Assembly (NCBI GenBank): GCA_037042915.1
Contig: CM073199.1
Location: 3,410,001 to 3,474,000 of the forward strand
Length of the DNA stretch: 64,000 nucleotides
Direction: 5' to 3'
DNA from: Auricularia sp. M13
Lineage: Eukaryota > Basidiomycota > Agaricomycetes > Auriculariales > Auriculariaceae
Shown: positions 8,174 through 52,585 of the stretch, one piece after another
Numbering within the stretch: position 1 is the first letter of the stretch
How the letters are laid out: each line of letters opens with the position of its first letter
Notes under the pieces: generated by a model
What the model was told of the DNA's origin: nothing
What the model saw: only the letters and a program-made list of their open reading frames with translations
Databases searched by the model: none
Program-made: the position numbers and the translations under genes

Positions 8174-9511
8174 TTACGCCAGCTCGAACGCGGACAGCAA
8201 TGTCTCGCGGTCCCCGGAGAGTGCGACGCCCTGTAGTTGAAGCGAAGGGCGTTTCTCTCGATCGCCGACGAGTAGCGTGAGGAATGCGCTCAAATCGCTC
8301 GCAGTGATCGTTCTGGGCCGAGTATCATCCGCGAGCTCCACGACAATAGTTTTCAGCGCTGGAAGGAGCAGTGCCGGAGGAGTCGTGCTGAGTGACGGCG
8401 GGAACTCGCCGTCGTCGACAACAACCACGAGGGTATGACAGGCGGGCAGCTCCTCGCAATGGGGAGCAAGATACGCGAGTTGGGCGTACAGCCGCAATGT
8501 CGTCACGCGTTCGACGAAGGTTTGCTCGAACAAGGCTTCGCGCGGCCAGTCCTCCAGAACGTGCGACGCGAACTCGATGAACGTTCGCGAGCGCCCAGAG
8601 GAAGGCGAGAACAGCAAAATGTGAACAAGGCCATGCCGTGCGCAAAGAAAGTTCATCCCGATCTCGCCGTCGAGATGACTGATGAATAGCCGGGTAATCT
8701 CCGCGTGAGGTTGCCGGCATTTGACGTAGGGTATCTTGTCGAGATTGGGGATGGAGAATAGGATGCTGTCGTAATCACAAAGTGTGATGCTAACCTCCAG
8801 TAAGGTCAGCTCGGGTACCGTCGTTGCACTTTCCTGCGCAACCTCGCGGTCCGTACCCAGACACGAGTCGCCAAATATGGTCAAGGACGTCAGGGCCGGG
8901 AAATGGACGAAGAGTCCAAACTCGAATATGCGCGGAGACCCGAAGTCGAACAGTAGAGATCGAACATAATCAAAGGCGCGAATGGGTTGTGGAGGGAATG
9001 CCACGTAGGTTAATGCCGCGGCTGTTAGCTTCGGGCATGGGCCTGCGAAGAGGTCGGGAGGCAGAAGAACCGAGCTTTGGTCCTCAGGCAGATGATAGAA
9101 GCGGAGGGCAACGTGTTCGAGGCGCGGAGCTGGATGAGTTAATGTACACATGAGATCATGAGCGACCTCGTAGTGTAGATCAAGCCCAAGGTGACGGAGT
9201 CGTCGAAGATTGCGAGCAATCGCAGACAGGACGAACGATTGTACGTCCTTGGAAAGAGGGCTATCCGTAAGTTTGATAGAGAGATTGATGCTGCTGTCGG
9301 TAGTCTGCTTGAGCCGCGCTTCGAAGAAGTCTAGGGCAGATGTAGAAATAGCCGCAAGCCGGATGTTGCGCCAAAAGAGCGGATGAGAGCGGGCGACGTC
9401 TCGCCATCTGGCGCAGACGCGGGACAACAGCAGCAGTTGTGCAATGTCCACCCAGTCGAACACCAGAGAGATTATCTCCACGGGCAGCCGGCTCGAGGCA
9501 CCAGTCCACAT
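8174..9511 (-). CDS. F-box protein with LRR-like C-terminal part (arm A copy)
   Basis: Single-exon gene, 445 aa. Residues 8-52 form an F-box (RLPVEIISLVFDWVDIAQLL, then VCARWRDVARSHPLFWRNI), which binds Skp1 in SCF ubiquitin ligases. The rest is a run of irregular leucine-rich segments typical of the greatly expanded Agaricomycete F-box families, presumably the substrate side. It is a paralog of the gene at 30978-32318 and of the broken copy at 15128-16527. It is transcribed away from the C2H2 gene at 9784, with about 270 bp between the two starts; the same divergent pair exists in arm B. No substrate can be inferred. Confidence 0.85.
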   Translation of the reverse strand: MWTGASSRLPVEIISLVFDWVDIAQLLLLSRVCARWRDVARSHPLFWRNIRLAAISTSALDFFEARLKQTTDSSINLSIKLTDSPLSKDVQSFVLSAIARNLRRLRHLGLDLHYEVAHDLMCTLTHPAPRLEHVALRFYHLPEDQSSVLLPPDLFAGPCPKLTAAALTYVAFPPQPIRAFDYVRSLLFDFGSPRIFEFGLFVHFPALTSLTIFGDSCLGTDREVAQESATTVPELTLLEVSITLCDYDSILFSIPNLDKIPYVKCRQPHAEITRLFISHLDGEIGMNFLCARHGLVHILLFSPSSGRSRTFIEFASHVLEDWPREALFEQTFVERVTTLRLYAQLAYLAPHCEELPACHTLVVVVDDGEFPPSLSTTPPALLLPALKTIVVELADDTRPRTITASDLSAFLTLLVGDREKRPSLQLQGVALSGDRETLLSAFELA

Positions 9512-9783: not shown

Positions 9784-11697
9784 ATGGCACATAGAAACAC
9801 CCATCCTCCTCTGGACCCTAGTCGCGATGATATCTTCGATGATTACTCTGTCTCACAAAACGCGCGGCATCAGCGCAGTCTGCTGCCTCAGACCGCGCTC
9901 ACACGTCCCCGTCTTCAACTTCATCCCGCACCGCCTACCACAGGTGATTGAGCATCGCCTCTTCCCAGCTTTTGCCTGAACGTCCTGTAGATCCGGCTGA
10001 GGAAGAGGACAACGTCACTGTTCAGGTTGAATATCGATACGTGAGCGTCATGCACAATATTTATACCCTCGTAGCGCCAGTCTGTAGTCGCCCGCGCGAG
10101 AGATGGACGGACGGTTGATCGACGTGTTCGACTTCCGTCCACTGATCCCGCCCGACGTCCCGTCTCAGTACGCCCATTATTATTTCAAGAGCTTAGCGCA
10201 ACTGAACCGGTAATGAGGGGGACCAACGGCGATCTGGCAGCCCACCGCGGCGTAATCTGTTGCAGGATGAAGGTGGGCATTCACTTCACTGCATCTGAAT
10301 TGACTGTGACTCACCTTCCCGAAGACACGAAGCATTCTTCCCGCCGCCGCCCGTCCCCACACGAGGTCCGTCCGTCCTATACACCCTCGGGCACACAGCA
10401 GGTGTCCGATAAGAAGTCACCGAGCCCAAGTGCACAGGATGGAGCCGCTTCGCTGATCCTCCTTGAGAACCAGCCTAAGAAATTCGGCGCACGGACGACC
10501 TCGTCCACGCAGACACACTCGTCTCATCATGTGTTAACAGGCTCTTCCTCTTTTCATGTTGCGGACTTGTCTCGAACAGGTGCAGTGCCTCCGGCAGTCG
10601 TTGCGTCTCGAACTGCGTCGAATCATACAGTATCATCGTATCCTCAAGACGCTATTCCTCAGCACTGGCAGAGCAAGTCACCGAGTCCGCAAGCAGTGGA
10701 TGCGGCCATGCGGCTGTCTCAATGGAAATCTGGCGCAGGCGCGGCGTCGTCCGCGCAGACTCACTCGTCTCAGTATATGTCTACAGGCTCTTCTTCTGCT
10801 CACGTAGCAGATCCGTCTCGAACTGCGACAACTAAGTCACCGAGCCCGCAGGCAGTGGATGCAGCTATTCGGCTGTCTCAATTGAAATATGGCACAGGCG
10901 CGGCGTCGTCCACGCAGACGCACTCAGCTCAACATGTCTCTACGCGCTCTTCTTCTGCTCACGTAGCAGATCCGTCTCGCGCAGGATCAGTGCCTCTGTC
11001 TGCCGTCGTCCCGTCTCAAACTGCGTCGACTCGTGCAGCATCGTTGCGCCGTCAAGACGCGACTCGTGCTACTGGATCTTCTGCGGCAGCAGCGCATCTC
11101 CCTGCCCCGCGTGTTGCTCGCCAAGTCTCACGTGCTAATCGCGACCAGCGAGGGCTTCCTCCGCTTCAGGTTCCCAATGCTCAAGCTCCTCGAGTGCCAC
11201 CCCCCGGTGTCTCACACCTCCCTCCTGCCACTCCAGGTCACGCACCTCCAGCTCCAGGTTTCGCAGCTCCCCCTACCAGTTACCCAATTGCACCATATTA
11301 TGGTCATTCAGCCGGAGCGCAGCACGGAGCTCCCGGCCCCGCCTATCAGAGTGGTGGTCCGCCACCGCCGGCGGCCATTCAAGTTGATATAGATGCCAAG
11401 CATGCAGATGGGAAACACCATTGTCCCGTGTGCGGAGCCACGTTCAAGACTCAGGGGCCTTACCAGGTGTGTGTCCAGTTGGCCTGTTTGCGGTCTGAAC
11501 TGACCTATTATATTCGATCCAGATACACAGGAGGACCCATGAAGACGAACGTGAGCTTCCAGTCCACGATACCATAGCTTAGACTGATCCTTTCTACAGC
11601 GTTCAAGTGCCCCAAATGCGGTGCGGGCTATTCTTCTATTTCGGGTCGTCAGGCGCACTGCAAGAAGAGCTGTCCGTACCGTGTGACGCAAGGGTGA
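9784..11697 (+). CDS. C2H2 zinc-finger protein with low-complexity repeats (arm A copy)
   Basis: Six exons (9784-9943, 9991-10040, 10088-10209, 10266-11466, 11523-11550, 11600-11697) give 552 aa. The C-terminus has two zinc fingers assembled across three exons: CPVCGATFKTQGPYQIHRRTH (C-x2-C-x12-H-x3-H) and CPKCGAGYSSISGRQAHC (C-x2-C-x12-H-x4-C, a CCHC variant). Before them is a proline-rich stretch, and before that 45-50 residue Ser/Thr-rich repeats with the marks KSPSPQAVDAA, QTHSS and SSSAHVADPSR. The architecture suggests a DNA-binding regulator with a disordered activation part; targets are unknown. The paralog at 28768-30434 shares a nearly identical finger region but a rearranged 5' exon structure. 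The 53-aa first exon and the exon 3-4 junction are the least certain parts. Confidence 0.75.
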
Positions 11698-12230
11698 GGC
11701 GCACAGACGATTCGACGCTACGGCGGTGTACAACAAATCGTTGGCATTCTGGCCATAAACTACGCTCTGATCCTGCGACTCCTTTATGACACTTCCCGCA
11801 ATCACAAGAAAATGTTTCTTTCCAAATTGTCTAGGAGATATGATTGCTTTACCAAAACCGCTGGAAGATAGCTCTTGCATAGCTCAACCCGTGAGATGTT
11901 TGCCCCGGAGCCGCTGCGCGGCAAGGGCTGGGGAAGCTGTGGATCAAGGGTCCCTCGGCACAGCTAGTTGTCGTGGAATTGAAGCCGGAATAATCTCTCG
12001 TAGGATGCGCTTTCACCGCACGTTCAAGTTGTATAAATCCAAAGTTTGGGACGGAACGCAGAGACGAGATCAGGAGGCAGAAAGTATTACAGAGTCCGCT
12101 TCACAACTCTCCCAGCGACGGCGACCATGTCCGTCTTGTTTAGCGCGTACCAGCGTCGGTGGCACCTGCGCCCAACGTTTCCGTGCAACCAGCTCTATCT
12201 TGCCTGAAAATCCGCACAGTTCAGCACGAC
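11698..12230. other. 3' flank of C2H2 gene, conserved between the duplication arms
   Basis: No convincing gene. To about 12,090 it is almost identical to the matching DNA in arm B (28,345-28,767), apart from an extra ~25 bp in arm B next to CTCAACCCGTGAG. Noncoding DNA kept this similar points to recent exchange between arms rather than to selection on protein. Confidence 0.6.
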
Positions 12231-28310: not shown

Positions 28311-28767
28311 TGGTCGCCGTCGCTGGGAGAGTTGGGAAGCGGACTCTGTAATACTTACTGCCTTCTGATCTCGCCTCTCTGCATTCCGTCCCAAACCTTG
28401 GATTTATACAACTTGAACGTGCTGTGAAAGCGCATCCTACGAGAGATTATTCCGGCTTCAATTCCACGACGACTAGCTGTGCCGAGGGACCCTTGATCCA
28501 CAGCTTCCCCAGCGCTTGCCACGCAGCGGCTCCGGGGCAAACACCCGCACGGGACTGGATTCTTCCACACTCACGGGTTGAGCTGTGCAAGAGCTATCTT
28601 CCAGCGGTCTTGGTAAAGCAATCATATCTCCTAGACAATTTGGAAAGAAACATTTTCTTGTGATTGCGGGAGTTGTCATAAAGGAGTCACAGGATCAGAG
28701 CGTAGTTTATGGCCAGAATGCCAACGATTTGTTGTACACCGCCGTAGCGTCGAATCGTCTGTGCGCC

Positions 28768-30434
28768 TCACCCTTGCGTCACACGGTACGGACAGCTCTT
28801 CTTGCAGTGCGCCTGACGACCCGAAATAGAAGAATAGCCCGCACCGCATTTGGGGCACTTGAACGCTGTAGAAAGGATCAGTCTAAGCTATGGTATCGTG
28901 GACTGGAAGCTCACGTTCGTCTTCATGGGTCCTCCTGTGTATCTGGATCGAATATAATAGGTCAGTTCAGACCGCAAACAGGCCAACTGGACACACACCT
29001 GGTAAGGCCCCTGAGTCTTGAACGTGGCTCCGCACACGGGACAATGGTGTTTCCCATCTGCATGCTTGGCATCTATATCAACTTGAATGGCCGCCGGCGG
29101 TGGCGGACCACCACTCTGATAGGCGGGGCCGGGAGCTCCGTGCTGCGCTCCGGCTGAATGACCATAATATGGTGCAATTGGGTAACTGGTAGGGGGAGCT
29201 GCGAAACCTGGAGCTGGAGGTGCGTGACCTGGAGTGGCAGGAGGGAGGTGTGAGACACCGGGGGCTGGCACTCGAGGAGCTTGAGCATTCGGAACCTGAA
29301 GCGGAGGAAGCCCTCGCTGGTCGCGATTAGCACGTGAGACTTGGCGAGCAACAGGTGGGACAGGGAGCTGCGGTGCAGCCGCAGAAGATCCCGTAGCGCG
29401 AGTTGTGTCTTGACGGCGCAACGGTGCGGCACGAGTCGATGCAGTTTGAGACATGATGACGGCAGACTTCAGAGGCACTGCACCTGTTCGAGACGGATCT
29501 GATACGTGAGAAGAGGAAGAGCCTGTAGACACAGGAGGAGACGAGTGCGTCTGTGTGGCTGCAGGAGCTTTCCGATGCATTCGACTAATTGACTCCAAGA
29601 GAGCGCCCGCACTCGGTGAAGCGGGGCTCGTTACACGTGTTGGTTTGGGGCGCGATGATACTGTAGCAGTCGACACGGTCCGAGACGCAACGACTGCTGG
29701 TGAGATTCCTGCACCGGTGAGAGACGGATCCGTTCCGTGAGAAGAATATGAGCCTGCGGAAACATGACCAGACGAGTGCGTCTGCGTGGACGAGGTCGCC
29801 GATGTGACGAATCTCCTACTGTGAATCAACGAAGTGACTCCCTCCTGTGTTCTAGGGCTCCGTGACTTCAACATGTCGGATACCTGCCGTGTGTTTGAGG
29901 GTGAATAGGACGGACGGACCTCCGGCGGGGACGGGCGGCGGGAAGAATGCTTCGCGTCTTCTGCAAGGTGAGTCACAGTCAATGCGGATGCAGTGAATGC
30001 CCACCTTCATCCTGCAACAGATTACGCCGCGGTGGACTGCCAGATCGCCGTTGGGCCCCCTCATCCCCCGTTTCAGTTGCGTTCAGCCGTTGAAATAATA
30101 ATGAGCGTACCGCGTCTGGACGTTGGCGGGTGGTAGCGGAAGGGAGTCGAGAGTCCCGTCGCCTGATGAGTCGTGTTCCGGGTGGGGGCGTCTGCAAAAG
30201 CGTCAGTATACAAGGCGGCCAGCGTATAGAGTCCAACCTGAGTACCGTCATCATCTTCAGCCGGACCTGATGCACGTTCAAGTTCAGGAACGATGGGGGG
30301 AAGATAACAGTGGACAAACTAGTAGTGTGCGGCGGACGATGATCTGAGTGAGCCACCACATAACGAGTGTCGTCAAAGGGGTGGTCATCGACAAGGCCTG
30401 TGTATAGAGAAGAGGATGTATTGTTGTGGGCCAT
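28768..30434 (-). CDS. C2H2 zinc-finger protein (arm B copy)
   Basis: Six exons on the minus strand (30360-30434, 30246-30318, 30111-30191, 28999-29960, 28915-28942, 28768-28865) give 438 aa with phase closing throughout. The zinc fingers (CPVCGATFKTQGPYQIHRRTH and the CCHC-type CPKCGAGYSSISGRQAHC) and the proline-rich part are nearly identical to the arm A copy. The Ser/Thr-rich repeats are fewer and diverged. The 5' part is remodelled: arm A intron 1 has no counterpart, and the stretch matching arm A exon 3 (HYYFKSLAQLNR) is intronic here, because its donor is changed and a new acceptor (CCTTGCAG) is used. The 54-bp intron between 30191 and 30246 has no stop and is a multiple of three, so it may be retained. 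The first exons are the least certain. Confidence 0.65.
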
Positions 30435-30977: not shown

Positions 30978-32318
30978 ATGTTGACTGGCGCGTCGATCCG
31001 GCTACCAGTGGAGGTCATCTCGCTGGTGTTCGACTGCATTGACATTGCACAGCTGCTGCTGGTATCCCGCGTTTGCTCCAGATGGCGGGCCGTCGCTCGC
31101 TCCCATCCGCTCTTCTGGCGCAACATCCGGCTCGCAGCCGTATCTCAGGCGGCCCTCGACTTCTTCGGAGCGCGTCTTAATCAAACAATCATTAACGGCA
31201 TCCGTGTTGATATCCAGCTCCCGGATATCCCTCTCGCCAAGGACGTACAATCCGTCATTTTATCTGCCATTGCTCGCAACCTTGGACGGCTGCGTGACCT
31301 GAGGCTTGACCTACACTACGAGGTCGCTTCAGATCTTTTGCCCGTACTCGTAGATCCAGCACCTCGCCTCGAACACGTCGCTCTCGCTTTCTATCATATA
31401 CCGGAGGAGGAAGGCTCGGTGCTTCTGCCACACGACCTCTTCGCAGGCAGATGCCCGATTCTAAAGGCTGCTGCGTTGACCAATGTTTCTTTTCCCCTAC
31501 AACCTATCCTTGCCTTTGATCACGTCCAATCTCTGATTATCTACTTCGGCTCTCCGCGAGACTTCAACTTCAGGCTTTTTAACCATTTCCCGGCTCTGGC
31601 ATACTTGGCGATGTTTGGCAAGTCGTGTTCGGGTCTGGATCAGGACTCAACACACGCACTTCCCACGCCTATTCCGGAGCTATACGTCTTGGACGTTTGC
31701 CTCTCGCACTGCAACTACGACGGCATATTTTCCTCTTTTCCAAATCTCTCCCGGATAGCCAACGTAAAATGCCGGCAGCCTCCCTTGGATATCGCCCGCT
31801 TGTTCATCACCCATCTCGACGGTGATATCGAGATGGACTTCCATTGCGCGCTGCGTAGTGTTCGCATTTTGCTGTTCTCGCCTTCTTCTCGGCGCGCGCG
31901 AACGTTCATCGAGTTTGAGTCGCGTGTTCTGGAGGATTGGCCGCGCGACGTCTTGTTCGAGCGGCCCTTCGTCGAGCGTGTGAAGATGTTGCGGCTGTAC
32001 GCCCAACTCGCGTATCTTGCTCCCCATTTCGAGGAGCTGCCCAATTGTCACACCCTGAAGGTTGTCGTCGACGATACCGAATTCCCGCCGCCACTCAGCG
32101 CTACTCCGCCGGCTCTCCTCCTTCCCGCGCTGAAATCCATCGTCGTGGAGCTCGCGAAGCATCCGCCGATTCCGCCCAGAACGATCTCTGCGGGCGCTTT
32201 GGGGGCGTTCCTCACGCTGCTCGTCGGCGATCGAGAGAAACGCCCTTCGCTTGAGCTGCAGGGCGTCTCACTCTCCGGGGACCGCGGGACGTTGCTGTCC
32301 GCGTTCGAGCTGGTGTAA
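30978..32318 (+). CDS. F-box protein with LRR-like C-terminal part (arm B copy)
   Basis: Single exon, 446 aa. The N-terminal F-box reads RLPVEVISLVFDCIDIAQLL and VCSRWRAVARSHPLFWRNI, followed by leucine-rich irregular repeats. It has the same length, within one residue, as the arm A gene and aligns end to end without large gaps; the first 71 residues differ at 14 positions. It is intact, unlike the third copy at 15128-16527. As an F-box protein it should recruit a substrate to an SCF ubiquitin ligase through Skp1; the substrate is unknown. It is divergent from the C2H2 gene, as in arm A. Confidence 0.85.
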   Translation: MLTGASIRLPVEVISLVFDCIDIAQLLLVSRVCSRWRAVARSHPLFWRNIRLAAVSQAALDFFGARLNQTIINGIRVDIQLPDIPLAKDVQSVILSAIARNLGRLRDLRLDLHYEVASDLLPVLVDPAPRLEHVALAFYHIPEEEGSVLLPHDLFAGRCPILKAAALTNVSFPLQPILAFDHVQSLIIYFGSPRDFNFRLFNHFPALAYLAMFGKSCSGLDQDSTHALPTPIPELYVLDVCLSHCNYDGIFSSFPNLSRIANVKCRQPPLDIARLFITHLDGDIEMDFHCALRSVRILLFSPSSRRARTFIEFESRVLEDWPRDVLFERPFVERVKMLRLYAQLAYLAPHFEELPNCHTLKVVVDDTEFPPPLSATPPALLLPALKSIVVELAKHPPIPPRTISAGALGAFLTLLVGDREKRPSLELQGVSLSGDRGTLLSAFELV

Positions 32319-49421: not shown

Positions 49422-51513
49422 CCCGCCCGTTCCCCGTGCTCTGGCATACCGCGCAACGGCGCGACGCCGGATGGGGCGGGCCCGTCCCCGCCCGCCCCGC
49501 TTCGCCCTGTACATGCTTCTCCTCGCCCTTGGCCGACCGCATACCGCGCGTGCTCCGCCCAGCATGCGCGACGTGGCCGGCCTTGTACATTGCTTCCAGA
49601 ACCCGCTTTCGCCGCGACTACCGCCGCACCCACACATATCTATTGCGCCCCGGCAGTCCGCCCGGTGTCAGACCCGCTGCCGCTGTCGACAGTGGACTCA
49701 CAGCGGGCGTCGACACCGGTGCCGCTGCAGGACTCCGATTCTGTAACATACAAGCTCTCCGACCCATCGCCTCCGCCTTTGCAAGTTTTTATCCTCTCTA
49801 TCCATCCCACTCGCGTCCGGCCATCTTTTCGCAGTCTGCGGGATCCCTACCACTTGCCGAATCCACACCTGCCGCATTGCATGATCCCGCACATCCACCC
49901 CGCCTTTCGACATTCGACTGTACATGTTCTTTCTCGACGCACGCTCCTCCCTCGCCCCATCCCATTCCCCATGCACGACTCTGCCCCGCCGTAATCACGA
50001 CCTCCGCCCCGATACATCCCCTCACGACGCAAAAAATGGCTCGACGACGACCCACCAAACCAAACCTCTCCGCCACGCTTTTCTCGCTGTTTATAGTACG
50101 TTGGGCTTGCGTCGATCTTCCCGCTTCACCGCACACCGACTCTTCTGTCCCCTAGCTTGTCCTGACCTGTCCTGTACTCAGTACCTACTATTATCGTCTG
50201 CCGACTCGACTCTCGATACTTAGATACGAACCCGAATGGAATTGAATTGAAGTCAACTGCTCGCAACCTGCACTTTCACTTCGATTGGCGTTTAGCTCGC
50301 TGCACCATCACCACGAGGCGCAGTATATTCAGGCTATCTGAGGCGGCGTTATCAGATGCCTCGTGTTCGTCGGTAAGCTCGGTCGTTATCATCCATTTGA
50401 TTAAAACTTGGTAAGGCACTGGGCATTGGGCAGGTCGGACCCGCGGTAGCCTCGTTCACAGCCTGAGCCTCGTGCTTGCGATACGGCGGCCGCTAATCCT
50501 CAGGCTTAATCCCAACAACCTCACAGTCCCCGCGAGGTGGGGAAGCCGCCCTCCGCCGGTCTGCAGCAGTGGTTGGTGGAGAGCCGCGTCGCGTCGCGGC
50601 TTCTTTGGTGGCGCGTCGCGACGCGGCGGACTCATGGAATCGATCGCGATGATTGTCAGTCAGGTGCGGTGGCGCCGTCCCGACCTTCCGAGTCGTGCAA
50701 ACTGGCGCAGGCTCTCGCTTGTCGATTGTCGATCCTCCACCTCGTCCGCGTCATCATCGGGGATAAGAGATGGAAGGGTTGGGGAAAGGCACGTGTTGAA
50801 TTCATTTGCAATTGTGTTCGCGGGGTTTGCGGCTTTCCTGAACTTGAAGGTATCTCGTCCCGCATAATCTCGGGCTTGGGACCAGGGACGACGATTGAGT
50901 GAATTCTGCCGCCAGCCGCCTGGGGAAGGGGAGTTGTTGGCCAGTCGGCACTCGGCAGCAAGGCGCGAAACTTCAATGAAGGACCTTCCCCCGCATGCAC
51001 ACGAGTTCTGCGATAATCTCACATTATCTTCCATGCATGGAGGCCTAGGCCGCCATGTGCGTCGCTTCGCTAGCCCGTGGGACTTGGAGAGATTGCAAGG
51101 CGTTTCAGTCTCGCTGCGCTTCAAATTCGTCTCTCAACTTCACAATTTTTCGTTGACACACATTAACCCAGCTCCAATCAGTATGACGAGCGAGGATAAT
51201 CGATATGGTGGGGCCCAAATGGCTCGTGCAGTGTCAATGATCATTGGTGTTCATGCGGGTCCGTGCTAACGTCAATGACAGAGTGGTGCGGAAAGAGCGT
51301 GCTGCAAGAGAAGACGAATAGAGCGAAGACGAAGGTAATGGGCTTGGGGGAGCGCGAACGCGAAAAAAAGGGGGTGATTTTCGAAGACGAAGGGATAAAT
51401 AGCCTTGGCCCAACTGGTGGCGACTGCGTAACTGTGGCGGAAAATAAAAAGTCAGTAAAAACGGTGAAAAGGCTAGCTGAGAGGCCTACCTGCCAGCGGA
51501 AAGTACGCGCCGC
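49422..51513. other. Intergenic, no supported gene
   Basis: 3' flank of the PPTase gene and 3' side of the pheromone gene. I looked specifically for a seven-helix STE3-type receptor and for further CaaX precursors on both strands and saw none. A short frame at 49,924-50,223 is not protein-like. Confidence 0.5.
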
Positions 51514-51657
51514 TCATGCAATCACGCAGTAGGGCGTCGTGCCCGAGCTGGTCTCCCCATCGACGGGCAGGGGCGCAGCGGGCGCGCCGTCCTCCGCACC
51601 CGAGCCGAAGATGCGCTCAAAGAAAGAAGTAGACGTGCTGGTGGCGATGGCGTCCAT
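51514..51657 (-). CDS. CaaX lipopeptide mating-type-like pheromone precursor
   Basis: Single-exon 47-aa frame, too short for most gene callers. It begins MDAIATSTSTSFFERIFGSG and ends TTPYCVIA directly before TGA. CVIA is a CaaX farnesylation box; the M-D start, Phe-Phe near residue 12, the Glu-Arg pair at 14-15 as a possible processing site, and the acidic Gly/Pro/Ala-rich middle all fit basidiomycete pheromone precursors. In that family the C-terminal part is farnesylated, trimmed, carboxymethylated, exported by a Ste6-type transporter and sensed by STE3-type receptors. A TATATA box lies about 91 bp upstream (51748-51753). No receptor gene is in the window, so it may be the edge of a B mating-type locus or one of the non-mating-type pheromone genes common in Agaricomycetes. 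Confidence 0.82.
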   Translation of the reverse strand: MDAIATSTSTSFFERIFGSGAEDGAPAAPLPVDGETSSGTTPYCVIA

Positions 51658-51747
51658 TATTTCGTGAGCGGGGCGTGACGGGGCCGTAGCGTTGCAGAAG
51701 GGCGGGGCGAAGGAGGGCAGAGGATGCCGGCCGCCCCACGGCGCCTC

Positions 51748-51753
51748 TATATA
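51748..51753 (-). promoter_or_regulatory. TATA box of the pheromone precursor gene
   Basis: TATATA in a GC-rich surround, about 91 bp before the start codon and properly placed for transcription toward the 47-aa frame. It supports the frame being a real gene. Confidence 0.6.
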
Positions 51754-52585
51754 CCACGCCTGCGCGCCCTAGATCTGCATCTCACATCTCGGACGGGACC
51801 TGTTTCATAAGACGCGCCCCGGCGCGCCGTTCACAAGGGGCACGCGCGCTCACATGGGCCATGATGCCTCCGGGGGGCCATTGTGCACGCGAAGCTGATG
51901 TGACGCAAAATGAAGTGCTGCCGCGCCGACGGCTCATCCGTGGGTTCATCACCGCGCTGTGTGTTCCACAAAGGTGCAGGGTAGGATGTAAATCCGCGCT
52001 ATCCGTATGAACAGTCACTCACCTGATCTCAGGTGCCAATGCTCAGGTCACCTCGGAGCAGTCGCCATTCGCCATCGGCGTACACGAAGATGAATAAGAG
52101 CGATAATCTCCTTGATCATATGGACTGCGTCACCACCTGATGGCTCATTTGAGATGAAACTGAAACGTAAGTACGCTGCGCAAGGGACAAGGATGAGCCA
52201 TTGATGCCGCCGATCAAAATAATCAACGAGCTTTGCTCGGTGACTCCCACCGCGACGCTTCGAACAGACGCTGGAAAGAACAAAATAAGACCGAGAGTAA
52301 GCTTACTGGCAATCATCGGGAAAGCCGGAGAGTTTCCTCGATGAGCGGTTTCCACCACATGAACGATTCATCTCCAGCGGTCACAATTGCATTGGGACGA
52401 TCAATGAATTGCCGTCCCTTGTACGCCGATGCGCAATGCATTAACAGTGTCTTGCGGTCATCAGGAACTGGGGGTCGATGCTACTCGCTGTATCTCTTGT
52501 TTTCCAGCTGTCTCATCAAGATTTCCGGCAGTTCAACGACTTTCATTGCGCCGCGTCCCGCCAGATTTCTCATTGAAGCACCACG
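51754..52585. other. Intergenic, no gene seen
   Basis: Upstream flank of the pheromone gene. Contains only short frames. A 16-codon frame ending CVTT at 52090-52140 was considered and rejected. Confidence 0.4.

Follow-up and report, generated by a model that had tools for sequence, protein, structure and literature searches.

The question raised by this locus is whether a short frame with an MD start and a CaaX end, found in a 64-kb stretch of the Auricularia sp. M13 genome (the window, C7:3410001-3474000), is a pheromone gene and, if so, whether it belongs to the B mating-type locus. An earlier reading made from the letters alone (the sequence-only reading) had described a CaaX pheromone precursor of 47 residues, either at the edge of a B locus or solitary and outside mating-type control. 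Here, we argue that the frame probably encodes a pheromone-like precursor without a mating-type role, as a solitary gene in a dispersed family of five or more. On translation, the minus-strand frame at 51514-51657 has the MD start, the FFER motif and the terminal CVIA that had been described, and reads MDAIATSTSTSFFERIFGSGAEDGAPAAPLPVDGETSSGTTPYCVIA followed by a stop. Its ATG, in the context CACGAAATAATGG, is the sole start that gives 25-120 residues to this stop, and the TATATA box noted upstream is indeed there (Table 1). The short frame, the MD-type start and the C-terminal CaaX box are as in fungal lipid-modified (a-factor-like) precursors, so the pheromone-type build first proposed is borne out by the sequence.

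Table 1. Features of the pheromone-like gene, in window positions
Feature	Position	Strand	Basis
Pheromone-like precursor frame, 47 residues, stop included	51514..51657	-	Frame reading, shuffles, relatives
TATATA box, -96 to -91 from the ATG	51748..51753	-	Upstream scan
CaaX box CVIA, residues 44-47	51517..51528	-	Translation
Predicted mature peptide end SSGTTPYC, residues 37-44	51526..51549	-	Inferred from alignment and B-locus ER/EH spacing from the cysteine
Candidate 3' UTR intron, 58 bases, GTAGGC...CACAG, with CTGAC within	51432..51489	-	Pattern match only

Within the window this is the one MD...CaaX frame of 25-70 residues. In 200 dinucleotide shuffles of the window, the mean number of such frames was 0.1 and the maximum 1, and none of the shuffled MD...CaaX frames ended in YC[VIT][VIL][AV]. 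Extrapolated from these shuffles, tens of chance MD...CaaX frames (roughly 80) would be expected in the 52-Mb genome, so that the frame by itself is insufficient and relatives are required. A Pfam scan of the window frame matched no family, and a search of the whole genome with PF08015 gave no match anywhere, missing also the nine B-locus frames described below. Ten other frames of the window were scanned for domains, and five of them carry one (F-box-like, below cut-off; GST C-terminal; peroxidase family 2; GH75; fungal transcription factor), none of which bears on pheromones; the other five carry none. Elsewhere in the window, 10213-11880 and 28585-29982 are copies in opposite orientation, with nearly identical 190-residue frames (11308-11880 on the minus strand, 28585-29157 on the plus strand) and similar long frames adjoining them (8174-9511, minus; 30978-32318, plus), and look like a duplicated, inverted segment.

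Relatives were found in the organism's own genome (52.1 Mb, 14 contigs). With the 47 residues of the window gene as the query, the matches beyond itself were C4:1295635 (E 0.0017, 38% identity) and C11:1201514 (E 0.0094, 50% identity), and neither of two genes on C1. The C11 peptide matched C4 (E 1.7e-8), C1:9245095 (E 3.0e-7), the window gene (E 0.015) and C1:5465034 (E 0.71), and the C4 peptide matched C11 (E 1.5e-8), C1:9245092 (E 5.0e-8) and the window gene (E 0.0022). Queried against the genome, the C1:9245 peptide matched C4 and C11, and the C1:5465 peptide C11 alone (E 0.50); the window gene was matched by neither. Given these reciprocal results, including the C1 queries that missed the window gene, C4, C11 and C1:9245 are, by sequence similarity, a tight trio, with the window gene and C1:5465 as looser members. 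The link of C1:5465 to the dispersed genes is weak (E 0.71 and 0.50), and the tie of the window gene to them is modest.

All four relatives sit in frames that start MDVL and end in AYC followed by TVA, VVV, TVA or ILA; an MD...CaaX frame at all four matches is a property outside the search criteria. The genome contains several mutually similar precursor genes of 42-47 residues, five in number and distributed over four contigs (C7, C4, C11 and, twice, C1), with a common carboxy end, E[K/T]S......[A/P]YC plus the CaaX box. Fourteen columns are invariant in the alignment of the window gene with C4 and C11, including MD, SF, PVD, E and YC. The predicted mature ends read SHSSTAYC, SSSSMAYC, SQSSMAYC, SAGSVAYC and, for the window gene, SSGTTPYC, with the pattern SxSSxAYC in three relatives and SAGSVAYC in the fourth. 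The window gene has PYC where its relatives have AYC, and ET (residues 35-36) where they have EK.

It is these paralogues that decide for more than chance, since the window frame scores 80 at best (mean 66) against the four relatives, and the 212 MD...CaaX frames that mononucleotide shuffling of the window produced did not exceed 34 (maximum mean 16.75). Against the nine B-locus frames, its best score is 41 and its mean 30; those nine frames score at most 45 against the four dispersed relatives (maximum mean 33.5). When the middle residues of the window frame were shuffled, none of 10,000 shuffles attained its summed score over the four relatives. Taken singly, C4 and C11 were matched better by the window frame than by any of 1000 shuffles, and for each C1 gene just one shuffle in 1000 did at least as well. 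Nor did any of 10,000 shuffles attain its summed score over the nine B-locus frames, so a distant relation between the window frame and the B-locus frames is also likely.

The promoter regions were compared in the same genes. A TATA[TA]A box precedes all five dispersed genes, at -96, -89, -100, -92 and -85, reading TATATA in the window gene and TATAAA in the four relatives (-85 to -100). One such box per 16-bp interval has a p of 0.004 at the density of the window, the density around C1:5465 being about 5 times higher. A TATA-like box also precedes seven of the nine B-locus frames, between -55 and -95. The 5-mer CACAA/TTGTG, chosen after looking at the upstream regions, occurs between -300 and -60 in 11 of 14 precursor genes (for the window gene, window 51717-51957); the mean in 200 shuffles was 5.66 and none gave 11. 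It might be a pheromone response element, which we offer as a lead. The best 6-mer, with a count of 7, is at the level of shuffles (mean maximum 6.96).

Could the window gene be a degenerating member of the dispersed family, whose frame is open only by chance, whose product is poorly processed and which is perhaps silent? Its divergence from the C4, C11 and C1:9245 trio would fit this, as would its PYC in place of AYC, the lack of a charged residue beside E35 and a dN of up to 0.67. Such precursors are expected to lose their N-terminal part, to be cut again at a charged dipeptide, to be farnesylated on the cysteine and trimmed of the three residues after it, and to be carboxymethylated; the charged dipeptides that precede the mature peptide are ER, DR, EH, NH, EE or DE (as given in sections of PMC8305134). 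None of these six occurs among residues 29-36 of the window frame. FFER, which the sequence-only reading had pointed out, lies at residues 12-15, its ER (14-15) 29 residues before C44; it has no counterpart in the C4 or C11 alignment and was rejected as the cutting site. The absence of charge near the predicted cut would be a mark against efficient processing of the window peptide. Judged by eye, ER or EH stands 8-9 residues before the cysteine in four B-locus frames, and an ER/EH/DR-type site is found in six of the nine; the remaining three are without the usual dipeptide like the window gene, which counts against reading its absence as decay.

Further evidence against decay is that the frame, the CaaX box and the TATA box are all intact. 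Among four dispersed genes (the window gene, C4, C11 and C1:9245; C1:5465 was left out), dN is lower than dS in all six pairs, from 0.23/0.76 to 0.67/1.38 over 42 codons and near saturation; the three pairs with the window gene give 0.57/1.12, 0.48/0.79 and 0.67/1.38, with dS again near saturation. We regard a decaying copy as unlikely. As for the CaaX box, CVIA had been called the most usual form. This is not so here: of the 14 precursor frames of the genome, one ends in CVIA and four end in CIIA.

To place the window gene relative to the mating-type loci, we searched the genome for STE3 receptors and further MD...CaaX frames, a check that the sequence-only reading had itself suggested and that gave two STE3 genes, nine B-locus frames and the four dispersed relatives. 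Matches to STE3 (PF02076) came as five pieces, read as two genes, and lie only at C7:1494922-1495901 (plus strand) and C7:1536717-1537722 (minus strand). Each receptor used as a genome query found only the other and no third; the search was exon-wise with only the best candidates scored, and further STE3 genes are possible. In the window, as had been noted before, no STE3 gene is seen: with the two receptors as tblastn queries, nothing there fell below E 4.8. The 80 kb around the two STE3 genes contain nine MD...CaaX frames of 28-55 residues (one of 69-70 residues if its first MD is counted), lying no more than 40 kb apart; shuffles gave 0.05 such frames each (n=40).

C7:1494922-1542315 holds nine MD...CaaX frames against two STE3 genes found. 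One of its frames, at C7:1539431-1539598 on the minus strand, has a duplicated unit, VNCDTPGGPTYTCIVA...VNCDTPGGPTYTCIIA, and of its two CaaX boxes the second alone is terminal. Two others, at C7:1502542-1502634 and C7:1515117-1515239, have the common end ERHGSVTVLC and differ in their N-terminal parts.

The window gene is on the same contig as this locus, at a distance of 1.92 Mb, with no STE3 gene nearby in the exon-wise search. The linkage to STE3 genes by which a B mating-type pheromone gene is recognised is therefore lacking at this distance. Of the two alternatives offered by the sequence-only reading, the edge of a B locus can be set aside, and a solitary gene outside mating-type control is favoured by sequence, by place and by the four dispersed relatives. 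It could still have started as a mating-type pheromone gene inside the B locus, left that locus and kept its part in B recognition, possibly loosely linked on the same chromosome. The common contig fits this, as do the build shared with the B-locus frames, the score against those nine that beats 10,000 of 10,000 shuffles, and an ET at a similar place in the B-locus frame B1514. However, the 1.92 Mb stands against it, the window frame is closer to four genes elsewhere than to any B-locus frame, and mating type cannot be defined by a peptide that is encoded at unlinked sites. We consider such a move quite improbable.

Homeobox genes were also located. There are nine Homeobox_KN matches in the genome; the strongest is on C3, and a cluster lies on C6 at 2.77 and 2.81 Mb, where one of four is over the cut-off. 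The C6 matches form two pairs of the same layout about 41 kb apart (C6:2769877-2770995 and 2810864-2812085), perhaps two HD subloci. Grouping of homeobox matches on C6, with the B locus on C7, would fit two unlinked mating loci. A position of the window gene near the HD locus was rejected because of this clustering on C6; a weak match (E 0.61), short of the cut-off, does lie on C7 at 3.56 Mb, about 0.1 Mb from the window gene.

Two other explanations concern the nature of the product. The frame could encode a prenylated microprotein that is retained intracellularly and has no signalling role. To our knowledge, pheromone-type precursors have no classical signal peptide, which counts for this explanation. 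Its build nevertheless matches precursors described as exported pheromones, and conservation peaks beside the CaaX box, as in a mature peptide, so that we judge an intracellular role very improbable. A chance frame, even with tens of MD...CaaX frames expected in 52 Mb by extrapolation, is scarcely credible in view of the relatives, the shuffle controls and the TATA position common to all four relatives.

Solitary, non-mating-type pheromone-like precursors, as which we read the window gene, are already known in mushrooms. Agaricus bisporus has four genes for precursors of 44-54 residues at a distance from its mating locus. Expression is described for three or more of them, their 3' UTRs contain introns, and three mature peptides are similar to the non-mating-type motifs of Coprinopsis cinerea and Laccaria bicolor, whose consensus is GGGSGNGAYC and GGGSGNNAYC, respectively (parts of PMC8305134). 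Pycnoporus cinnabarinus has seven precursors of 39-65 residues, four of which are more alike and resemble presumed non-mating-type peptides (PMC4101180, in part), and in Pleurotus tuoliensis two pheromone-like peptides are on scaffolds other than those of matB (PMC5755439, in part). The portions seen of the Grifola frondosa and Pleurotus ostreatus PC80 papers mention B-locus precursors only. A literature search for the strings AYCVIA, AYCVVA, AYCTVA, PYCVIA, AYCIIA and AYCVVS gave no fungal paper, as judged by titles.

The dispersed genes resemble these systems in several respects. Like the non-mating-type precursors of A. bisporus and P. cinnabarinus, as far as the excerpts describe them, they are short MD...CaaX frames, and as in Coprinopsis, Laccaria, Agaricus and Pycnoporus there are several similar ones per genome, none adjoining mating-type receptors. 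The 3' UTR introns of A. bisporus have candidate counterparts here: a simple intron pattern fits four of the five dispersed genes and not C1:9245 (pattern match only), and in the window gene a second possible donor lies 17 bases earlier. The mature ends, compared by eye with the printed motifs, consist of small residues closing in AYC as in the C. cinerea and L. bicolor consensus; unlike it, they are serine-rich and not glycine-rich, and the window gene closes in PYC. By this comparison, the five dispersed genes look like members of the same family as the GGGSGN[G/N]AYC peptides. They share the MD start and CaaX end with B mating-type (PR locus) precursors of tetrapolar Agaricomycetes, such as the nine of 28-55 residues in this genome, whose mature ends are diverse, whereas the window gene is closer to the dispersed genes.

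With four relatives elsewhere in the genome and the B locus 1.92 Mb away, the window gene would be a lone member of a family that is scattered outside the B locus. It would be transcribed from its TATA promoter. The precursor would receive a farnesyl group on cysteine 44, lose VIA and be carboxymethylated at the end thus exposed; cleavage near residues 33-36 would take away its N-terminal part, and the exported product would be a lipopeptide, some 8-12 residues long, with SSGTTPYC as its end. Since four contigs encode similar ends and no adjoining receptor was found, a role of the peptide in distinguishing mating types is unlikely. Our best guess is that its most likely role is that of a constant self-signal, in hyphal growth, fusion or fruiting, via an STE3-type receptor. 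Of this mechanism, the receptor step is the weakest part: both STE3 genes found are in the B locus, and no spare STE3 receptor for the dispersed peptides was seen among them.

Mushrooms carry STE3-like receptors that are still orphan, and Wirth and colleagues propose that two of them in Schizophyllum commune, Brl3 and Brl4, sense self-signals, with self-pheromones as possible ligands (from parts of PMC8161036). It is conceivable, though we put it forward as a tentative proposal with the odds against it, that all five genes specify a single conserved lipopeptide that is independent of mating and closes in AYC (in PYC for the window gene), of an age that would let the Agaricales share it (GGGSGN[G/N]AYC), and that serves as a general self-signal of mushroom hyphae. 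Such a peptide might be the ligand of an orphan STE3-like receptor or, where there is no spare receptor, a tonic input to the B-locus receptors. Five precursors with a common mature end and promoter layout, together with the two STE3 genes found, would provide a defined peptide and a short list of receptors.
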